NCBI RefSeq assembly: GCF_025602895.1
Contig: NW_026516302.1
Span: 107,679-171,678 of the forward strand
Direction: 5' to 3'
From: Polychytrium aggregatum
Lineage: Eukaryota; Chytridiomycota; Chytridiomycetes; Polychytriales
Length of the DNA: 64,000 bases
Below the pieces are notes generated by a model. The model was not told where the DNA came from and searched no databases. It was given only the letters and a program-made list of their open reading frames with translations. Positions 45,004-47,880 of this stretch are shown here, piece by piece. Position 1 is the stretch's first letter. Each line of letters opens with the position of its first letter. Position numbers and translations under genes: made by a program.

Positions 45004-45379
45004 ACAGATGCCGACCTGTCGTCGATCTGGTGATTGTCTGGTGTGTGTCTAATGCTGATCTTGTGTTTGTCTGGTGTTGCTCACCGGTTCCGTGAATGTA
45101 GCCGTAGCCTGCTGTGTTGGGGCTTTGTTCGTTCGTTCGTTCGCCGTGCTTGCAGATACCGCTATTGGCCGAGGAGTTCCACCGTGGGATGGCGAATCCG
45201 AGCATGCCGCATATATTCCTGGCTGATTCACGGAAGTGCCGGATACAGTCAATCCAGAAAATAACGGGACAGTCACTTTCTGGCTTCAGCGGCCTGCAGC
45301 CTGCCGATCCGTAGGCTCCAGTGAGCAAGCCGTGCGATTGTTTCCCGTCCTGGTTGGCAATCGTTTTGTTTTTGTTGGT
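45004..45379. other. Intergenic 3' of PRS
   Basis: A CTGGTGTGTGTC-type run and GTTCGTTCGTTCG (about 45,127-45,142). Nothing else recognised; the right edge adjoins the Fanzor-like relic. Confidence 0.4.
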
Positions 45380-45780
45380 TTGGGAAGCACAGTCTTGAAT
45401 ACACTCGGTCGATCTCCTGTGGCGATGTGGGAGTGTGGTGCATCCACTCGATCATCTGGACAGCTCCATGGTTTCTCGATATCAAGATGCTCGGCCTTCT
45501 CGAGCCGCTTAGCTTCCAGCACTCTGAGCACACCTGGGATGTGTTGAACTCGTTTACCGAGTACACAGGATACCTTCCTCTGGAGAATGGACTCGAGTAG
45601 ACAGCGGACCATTGGACCAGTCTGGAACGGATCCTGTTCAATAAGGGTGCGAATGACTGGACATGCCTGCTCAACGAAAGTGGATCTGCGACCTGCTTGT
45701 GGGTCGCTGCACTGGTCTCGGAGTACCAGCGATGGATGATGCTCTTGGACACACTGAAGATGGCGCCCTTGCGCAAGCTG
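45380..45780 (-). pseudogene. Fanzor/TnpB-like nuclease relic, C-terminal part
   Basis: On the minus strand, 45,557-45,519 encodes VNEFNTSQVCSEC, preceded by RGRYPVYS. This is the conserved acidic-residue/TSxxCxxC signature at the RuvC-zinc ribbon junction of Fanzor and TnpB proteins, eukaryotic and bacterial relatives used as RNA-guided nucleases in mobile elements. Upstream residues to about 45,776 remain open. Directly after the first Cys pair the homologous reading seems to continue in another frame (KRLEKAEHLDIEKPWSCPDD), implying an indel. There is no complete RuvC core, start or second intact Cys pair, so this is a dead fragment at best. Assignment rests on the motif and its spacing. 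Confidence 0.45.
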
Positions 45781-47880
45781 TGGAGCAGTATAATATCATC
45801 TCATCGCATCAAGCAATCTGGCCATATATCCATGACCCCCACCGGCTGGTGCCGAGCTGTGTGCTGAGCAAGGACGGTCGAGATTGTTGGGTATCATCAG
45901 CAGAGTGGCCCGGAGCATGACCGCGACACACAGCTGACTGGGCCGACGGACGAACAAGAGGATTGCATGGCCAGCCAAGGCCAAGAGCGGGTACGAATGG
46001 CACACCGTGGCATCGAGAGTTGCTACATTCGGTGGAAGCAAGGCGCGGGCGCCCCATTAGCTGGGCTGAGCCGGGGTGAGTTGAGCTGTCGGCCTGTTTG
46101 GGACACGAGGTGCCTCAAATGGGCCTTGCTCCTTGGAAGGAGATTGCCCTGGTGATTCGGGGCTGTGTGGAGCCGGGTGTGTTTGCGTGTGCCGGACATG
46201 GCGCAAAGCATGGCAACAGAGGCCACCGCGAGGAGGCATGCTGGACCTGAAGCGCACGGCCGACGCCGTCTGTTCTTTGGCTGGACGGCTGCAGATGCCC
46301 TTGGCAGTGCTGTGGATGCATTTGGCGGTCCTGGAGATGCATTTGGGCAGGGGTGCTTGCGGTTTTGCCGCGCCGATGGGGTGGCCCCAGGTTTCTCGGG
46401 CCGGTGTGCACGGCTCACGTGCAACGGGCCCCGCGTGCTCAGGCGCCCTTGTGTGGACATACAGAGCGGTACAGTGTCGCCAAAGTAGCTGGCTGGGCTG
46501 GCGGGCCGGGGCCGCGAAGGTTTTAGCGGCAGGCGGACCTGCTGGCAGTGGGCTTGTCGCCGACGGGCTGTGCTATCGCGAGGGAGAGAAGCAAGGTTGC
46601 GGCGACGAGGATTGGCGGAGGACATCGGCGATGATGTTGGCGAGGGCCATGTCCTCGACGACGACAGGCAGGATGCCCGAGGATGCCCGAGTATGACCGA
46701 GGATGGCCGAGGGTGGCCGAGGATGCCCAAGCATGGCCGAGAATAGCTGCCTCCGGGACGGTGCGCATCCGATGCATCGGTCGATCGGCAGGCCGGAGCC
46801 TCGCGGAGAGGAGGGATGGACCGGGGGACGCGGCTGGCGCCGCGGCTGTATGCTCTCCCCGTGCGACGAAACCTTATCCGCGGCCTGTGGCTGTGCACCG
46901 ACTCCTTGGTCGTCGCCCACGGCCTTTGCGGGACGAAGACGTGCTGGGCTTGCTGGGGAACGGCGATCATGCCGGCGCTTGCATTAGCCGTTGTTGCGAC
47001 GGGGTGTCTGTCTCTCGCTCCATCCACCACTCCATCTAACCACCACTCCATCTAACCACCACTCCATCTAACCACCACTCCGTCTAACCACCACTTTAAC
47101 CACCACTTTAACAGCCCACCAACTCCACCAACTCCATTTAACTACCTCCTCCTTGCCGCTCTCGCTGCCACTTCACCACTCTCGCAACCGCTCTCGCAAC
47201 CGCCGTTCCCGGCCAGCCAGAGCACCCACCCCCCCCTTGAGGCCTTGTCGGCTGTCGCCCCTCCCCGGCTCGCCTTTCTTGCACTTGTGCGCCGGCCTCG
47301 TCTGTTTTGTCCCGTTTCCTGTCCGCTGTCCCTGTCGGCTGCCCGTCCAGGCCCTGCTTCCTTGATCGGCCATCCCGTTTAAATATTGGCCCCCCACGCT
47401 CCCGCTTCCTCGCCCCAGTCGCCCCGTCTCCCAGCCTGCTTCCTGCGGATCTTTCTCCCTGATCCTGGAAGCCAATCGCCGAACCCTCACTTTCTCGAAA
47501 ACAAAACCTTGCCTCCCTCAACCTCCCGTTTCCACCGCCCTTCCCTCTTGCCAGCGGCCCTGCCTGGCTCCTCTCATCTGACGACTGCTTTTCTGCGTCG
47601 AACGGATCTGCTTCCTGTCGTCGCCTCTGTCCCTCGTTAAAGGCAATCCGGTCAGGTCATTCTCGCCCTCCAACCTCTATCCCGGACTCACCTTTGACTC
47701 CTGCTCGCCACCAACTCAAAACCAGACGACTCTCGACCCTCGCTCATATCTATCCATCGTCTCGCTCACCATCAAACTCTATTCTCTCGCCAATCGTCTG
47801 GACTCTCTGCTCGCAGTGTCGTGATCTGCTGGTCGTCTGTCTGTTCATCACCTCTCCCCTCCGATAACTCCAAAAATTAT
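45781..47880. other. Intergenic region and long ATG-free leader
   Basis: No gene recognised. A GATGCCCGAGGATG-type tandem repeat at about 46,665-46,740 and a CTAACCACCACTCCAT repeat at about 47,022-47,100. From 46,972 to 47,996 the plus strand contains no ATG at all and is CT-rich, consistent with a long leader of the WOPR gene. Confidence 0.55.

Follow-up and report, generated by a model that had tools for sequence, protein, structure and literature searches.

A probable dead copy of a composite Tc1/mariner-Fanzor transposon in Polychytrium aggregatum, from a family whose junctions fit Fanzor homing without proving it

The window, a stretch of 64,000 nucleotides of the Polychytrium aggregatum genome (C3:107679-171678), very probably holds, as regards both identity and anatomy, a dead copy, shortened by an internal deletion, of a composite Tc1/mariner-Fanzor transposon family. 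On its own, this copy is an ordinary relic. With its several hundred ends, its scarred junctions and its sharply defined target motif, the family allows a homing hypothesis to be tested directly: the motif predicts the target-adjacent motif (TAM), and the scars predict the position of the break and the side on which repair starts. Why transposons carry TnpB or Fanzor is well studied in bacteria and open in eukaryotes, according to the literature searched. The TTA bias and the left-only scars described below fit, without proving, the cutting of empty sites by Fanzor followed by repair from a copy of the element. We suggest tentatively, giving it rather less than an even chance, that copying is driven by the nuclease, Fanzor being the homing nuclease of a mariner-type transposon in a eukaryotic nuclear genome.

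The transposon family and its Fanzor proteins

Searched across 64.7 Mb in 418 contigs, the exact 23-mer of the left end has 311 matches and the right-end pattern 248, with 0 for the reversed-pattern control in either case. Independent insertions are fewer than these counts, because many of the places are second haplotypes; both haplotypes are seemingly present in the assembly for many loci (e.g. C3 and C246). The family ends read TACAGGCAATCCAATAAAAAACGGGACA on the left and ...GTCCCGTTTTTTTCTGAATAAAGTGTA on the right, with TA on both sides, and the window copy has the right end only. Terminal inverted repeats flanked by TA are those expected of Tc1/mariner elements, and the left and right repeats differ in sequence. 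At locus L042, the left end, the transposase, a Fanzor frame of 851 aa and the right end follow each other on one strand over about 3.7 kb from TA to TA, an order repeated at L043, and L131-L134 contain frames of 884, 920, 892 and 918 aa with complete zinc ribbons. The transposase frame of L015 encodes a DDE_3 protein (PF13358, E 1.8e-22), as a Tc1/mariner element should, and the window copy retains the N-terminus only. Matches to the L042 transposase are 95-100% identical (40 scored of 810 candidates), and the transposase-bearing group has therefore spread recently. Short copies with ends and little coding sequence also occur in the genome; the window copy belongs among them, except that no left end can be recognised in it. 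Very short elements of about 250-370 bases with both family ends were also seen at C1:868250-868545, C3:8164-8460, C35:834770-835036, C68:491140-491385 and C79:592368-592734.

Scored against PF07282 (cut-off 26.3 bits), L042, L131, L132 and L134 pass with 36.5, 38.6, 38.5 and 39.3 bits, respectively; L040, which is also without the second CxxC, stays below the cut-off with 18.9 bits, like the window copy with 18.2. The Fanzor/TnpB motif of Bao and Jurka, D-X(125,275)-[TS][TS]XX-C4-X(5,50)-RD (as given in the available part of PMC3627910), is complete and invariant in five aligned relatives, and in L131 consists of D611, T809 and S810 (197 residues between), C813, C816, C839 and C842, then, after 5 residues, R848 and D849. 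The five aligned relatives also contain IGIDPGVGS and either ISTDGVGC or ITTDGVGC, corresponding to the DPG in RuvC-I and the TDG in WED listed as Fanzor1 features (PMC10711439, available part), regions that the window copy does not have. A phmmer search of the PDB with L042 returned nothing at E 0.01; a profile of the five proteins found as its best PDB entry, weakly (E 0.077), the S. punctatus Fanzor SpuFz1 (8gkh), in an alignment that takes in the TDG region and the tail behind the zinc ribbon. In the genome, 150 of 150 scored candidates (of 663) exceed the PF07282 cut-off. The top PF07282 scores (E 8e-18 to 2e-16) belong to L022, L023, L026 and L027, with 477-aa frames, and to L021, L024, L025, L028 and L029, a shorter group that is possibly a more TnpB-like (Fanzor2-like) family.

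Target-site bias and junction scars

In the transposase-bearing group, the base before the left TA is T in 57 of 59 distinct flanks and A in the other 2, against an expectation for T of 13.9% from the TA contexts in the window (p 1.7e-46). The mirror test on the right side gave A after TA in 13 of 67 distinct flanks (p 0.21). With the bias for T thus confined to the left side, the target is not palindromic and reads TTA in the direction of the left end. For the left flanks, the sample consists of the 40 candidates scored out of 810, plus the first 100 places out of 311; for the right flanks, of 40 rows out of 41, plus the first 100 places out of 248. Merging of near-identical flanks took the left from 76 to 61, the right from 84 to 68 and the pairs from 57 to 51; two left ends whose TA is not where expected and one right end finishing in TG do not enter the base counts. 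The TTA rule is not universal and looks looser in the short or B-type copies: of the 11 distinct ones whose left TA is clear, 7 have T before it, 3 have C and 1 has A. TTA is thus the TAM predicted, from insertion sites, for the Fanzor of this family; reported Fanzor TAMs can end in the target duplication of the transposon (SpuFz1, CATA; PMC10432273, available part). That the T could be the element's own base was considered and set aside: among the scarred copies, L175, L056, L067, L140 and L173 have T-TA within the target stretch. The target stretch reads C-TA in L089, the one scarred copy (C2) that uses CTA.

For the 51 distinct left/right pairs, scars were measured as the length over which the left junction repeats the bases that follow the right TA. 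In five pairs, one of them ambiguous (L173/L174, L089/L129, L175/L176, L056/L189 and L067/L108), the left junction continues for 5-9 target bases past the TA, as against 1 of 2550 mismatched control pairs with 5 or more. Counted by side, scars are present at 5 of 61 distinct left ends and 0 of 68 distinct right ends (Fisher p 0.022, or 0.047 without L173; the numbers are small), and deviations among the 68 right ends are single substitutions only. The right flank of L056 was predicted before its retrieval, and the retrieved sequence matched the prediction. In each of the five, the target bases pass into the left terminal repeat through 2-6 bases common to both (lengths from the printed junctions). 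Of the 8 distinct B-type pairs whose ends are clear, one, L140, has a similar scar, of 4 bases. L173 is set apart because its right flank resembles the terminal repeat of a neighbouring element, and recombination between repeats could explain its scar; the element of L173 and L174 (C24:470054-473757) directly adjoins an apparent terminal repeat of a B-type element. Left uncounted as ambiguous were L155 (one substitution), L185 (4 matching bases, CGGG being a known end variant) and L142 (one base). The pre-insertion sequences are deduced from the right flank, because three joined-flank searches of the genome found no unoccupied allele; these searches confirmed the duplicated stretches, 10, 8 and 9 bases long, and the insertion at the C8 site is found in a second contig as well. 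Larger scars, with target-derived bases far upstream, were sought in 17 right-end copies including that of the window, where the longest prefix matches are of 8 bases with no preceding TA and give them no support. The 57 pairs were hand-picked from the lists, five very short elements and some others being left out, and, at either end of an element, this sampling would miss damage exceeding about 8 bases.

Homing could produce such junctions as follows. The transposase would move the element in a living family, and a guide RNA made from the right end and its flank would direct Fanzor to unoccupied sites, which it would cut some bases downstream of 5'-TTA. Repair from an element-bearing copy would then restore or spread the element: the right arm of the break would copy the element from the occupied site, giving precise right ends, and the left arm, still carrying a few target bases beyond the TA, would usually be trimmed and sometimes be joined by microhomology to the left terminal repeat. 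Precise right ends and occasional extra target bases on the left are predicted by a guide taken from the right flank. Internally deleted copies like that of the window would be abortive products of homing. Read in this manner, which we regard as plausible and somewhat short of probable, the one-sided TTA and the left-only scars may be a fossil record of Fanzor homing. Among the papers listed by a literature search on Fanzor with homing, target site duplication or microhomology, none has a title about Fanzor homing in eukaryotes. The main rival, to which we give only slightly less than an even chance, ascribes TTA and left scars to the transposase alone: the enzyme would prefer its targets asymmetrically and would now and then insert by one end only, the right end being joined by the transposase and the left end by microhomology repair of the host. 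With terminal repeats of different sequence, the two ends could indeed behave differently. The target preferences of Tc1/mariner elements are generally known as palindromic, however, and the bias found here is strictly one-sided; moreover, the scars occur only on the side where a break downstream of the TA would leave them.

The 3' region and the remnant in the window

Alignment of 37 distinct right ends shows the highest mean identity, 95%, in the first 28 columns, where GATTGCCAACCAGGACGGGAAACAATC lies; the middle averages 80% and the last part 89%. The RNAalifold consensus fold pairs the GATTGCCAACCAGGACGGGAAACAATC block with the right terminal repeat. This predicted pairing recalls Fanzor1 guide scaffolds, reported to include terminal repeats and target duplication (PMC10711439, available part). 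The fold z-scores are weak (-1.73 for the window copy, -1.29 for L042), and in covariation the candidate RNA does not stand out from shuffles, 97 of 500 of which reach the observed value; since the pair statistics do not go beyond shuffles, a paired scaffold is a suggestion only. A guide RNA just beyond the 3' end, as foreseen by the initial annotation, is plausible in position, and the conserved 3' region may be its scaffold. Rfam had no match in the window at the gathering score. We think it improbable that the window copy still sources, as a solo guide-RNA element, a guide for Fanzor made elsewhere, in trans. The 3' block is the best conserved part of right ends of which most are without a full Fanzor frame nearby, and short copies with both ends exist; against this, the covariation result stands, the left end of this copy is missing and the conserved block could serve the transposase instead.

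The remnant (Table 1) is flanked by two genes, one for a phosphoribosyl synthetase (PF14572, E 1.9e-11) and one of WOPR type (PF09729 Gti1_Pac2, E 4.8e-17), and ends in a right terminal repeat with TA, in agreement with the initial annotation of a past mobile element between PRS and WOPR genes. As to the kind of organism, PF09729 points no further than to a fungus. The locus is duplicated nearly identically on C246 (100% over the protein, 99.8% over 3.3 kb), probably the other haplotype. Elsewhere in the window, a GAGGATGCCC-like unit occurs in seven copies at 10-base steps (46660-46757), and CCACTCCATCTAA-like units are repeated, as seen by eye, upstream of the WOPR-type gene (47029-47090). 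DNA comparison divides the fragment into the start of a transposase and, over 45244-45571, another repeat, up to 90% identical in the first loci examined, that at other loci forms the terminal part of a Fanzor-type gene. The transposase part has about 80% DNA identity to five loci of the same genome (L008, L011, L013, L015 and L016), and by tblastn 62% protein identity to the transposase of L015 (E 5e-32). The earlier extent of the relic, 45380..45780, thus stands for its Fanzor part and not for its upstream half, and the element continues below 45380 as far as 45244. It is very unlikely that a single truncated Fanzor gene spans 45380-45780: the motif, the frameshift and the continuation are Fanzor, and the Fanzor proteins of L131, L133 and L134 align weakly over 45785-45483 (about 30% identity, tblastn), but for the upstream half this is ruled out by the transposase match. 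As the junction reads, the N-terminal portion of Fanzor is lost through an internal deletion that fused the transposase and Fanzor genes, and neither protein can be made from the frames of this copy. Upstream of 45784 no left terminal repeat was found (best local score 24, against 35 as the maximum of 200 shuffles).

Table 1. Features of the probable Tc1/mariner-Fanzor remnant (positions in the window)
Feature	Position	Strand	Remarks
Entire recognisable remnant, probable composite Tc1/mariner-Fanzor transposon	45244..45784	-	left end missing
Transposase gene, N-terminal part, Tc1/mariner (DDE_3)	45569..45784	-	DNA match, tblastn; PF13358 in the L015 frame
Internal deletion junction	45569..45571	-	3-base overlap (ATC) between the transposase match and the Fanzor match
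Fanzor C-terminal motif VYSVNEFNTSQVCSEC, first CxxC of zinc ribbon	45519..45566	-	frame -2
Fanzor C-terminus, continuation	45364..45516	-	frame -1; second CxxC and RD..NAARN deleted; tail GDRPSVFKTVLPK retained
Conserved 3' region, candidate omega-RNA scaffold	45244..45362	-	GATTGCCAACCAGGACGGGAAACAATC block could pair with right terminal repeat
Right terminal inverted repeat	45244..45271	-	terminal TA at 45244-45245; end common to 20 other aligned copies
Flank, would-be guide if an RNA were made	45214..45243	-	position relative to right end; principle from available part of PMC10432273

On the minus strand, the stop-to-stop frame 45273-45800 contains the peptide ...RYPVYSVNEFNTSQVCSECWKLSG...; VNEFNTSQVCSEC, together with the out-of-frame stretch behind it, is the C-terminus of a Fanzor1-type protein. 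Frame -2 (45566-45519) contains SVNEFNTSQVCSEC and frame -1 (45516-45364) the continuation EAKRLEKAEHLDIEKP...GDRPSVFKTVLPKPTKTK (also given as EAKRLEKAEHLDIEKP...IATGDRPSVFKTVLPKPTKTK), and the description of the relic as frameshifted and as lacking its N-terminal part was correct on both counts. Relatives such as L131 have a second CxxC and an RD-NAARN stretch that are missing here, as they are also at the end of the 873- and 825-aa frames of L032 and L040, respectively. The Fanzor/TnpB motif (PMC3627910, available part) is reduced to TSQVC..C, without the catalytic D part, the second CxxC and the RD. Taken alone, the peptide stays below the threshold of PF07282 (E 0.0029, 18.2 bits against 26.3), matches argH in NCBIfam only at chance level (E 0.078) and finds nothing in the PDB at E 10. 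The motif is kept almost letter for letter in relatives of the same genome (SVNEFNTSQVCSHC), DNA similarity extends through it (45423-45571, 84% to L040), and tblastn gives E 7e-13 to L131 for the frame -1 part (45364-45516) and, with the open stretch behind, E 3e-24 to L132 over 45516-45301. The motif is therefore more than chance, being near-identical in relatives and spanned by DNA similarity, while the complete relatives scanned pass PF07282. A chance motif with no homology, which the sub-threshold profile match and the empty PDB search would allow, is extremely unlikely given DNA- and protein-level matches to many relatives.

A relic of a Fanzor-like RNA-guided nuclease, as initially annotated, is thus borne out. 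Of the checks proposed with it, the profile comparison succeeded for the complete-ribbon relatives scanned and fell short for the window peptide, and the search of the same genome for intact copies and terminal repeats yielded long open-frame relatives and both element ends. The reading was to be dropped if the motif had neither profile support nor a full-length relative in the genome; because both exist, it stands. No relative was found by tblastn in viral contigs, and a weak Salyut match (PF19227, E 0.011), in the out-of-frame 3' part, was taken as chance.

Comparison with known systems

Going by the parts of the cited papers available to us, Fanzor1 proteins have been described in the Tc/mariner elements PGv-1, PUl-1 and PUl-4 (Bao and Jurka 2013, PMC3627910), and the present family resembles these in its Fanzor1-type protein with or without a mariner-type transposase, its terminal inverted repeats and its TA duplications (PMC3627910). 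PGv-1 and three relatives are single-copy (PMC3627910), whereas several hundred ends are found here in one genome. We noticed, in the available part of PMC3627910, no mention of scars at left junctions or of a third target base on one side only. TA duplications are also shared with SPu-1/SpuFz1 of Spizellomyces punctatus (PMC3627910; PMC10432273; PMC11423790), and the TAM of SpuFz1, 5'-CATA (PMC10432273), ends in TA, as does the TTA predicted here from insertion sites. SPu-1 is a single-ORF element of about 2.1 kb encoding 633 aa (PMC3627910; PMC10432273; PMC11423790, available parts); in contrast, the frames here are of 851-920 aa, and in the A group the transposase lies in the same 3.7-kb element. 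The TDG, the TSxxC and the tail wNRD...RPevFsr.vP align between the family and SpuFz1, in an overall match that is weak (E 0.077).

Meers et al. in 2023 reportedly described TnpB-driven retention and gene drive of bacterial insertion sequences. In the available part of PMC11870625, such a drive is shown in bacteria, with IS200/605 or IS607 elements, whereas the present case is a genomic pattern only, in a eukaryote. The logic would be shared: in either system the guide would come from the right flank and the TAM lie by the left end, and a cut empty site would be repaired from an occupied copy (PMC11870625).
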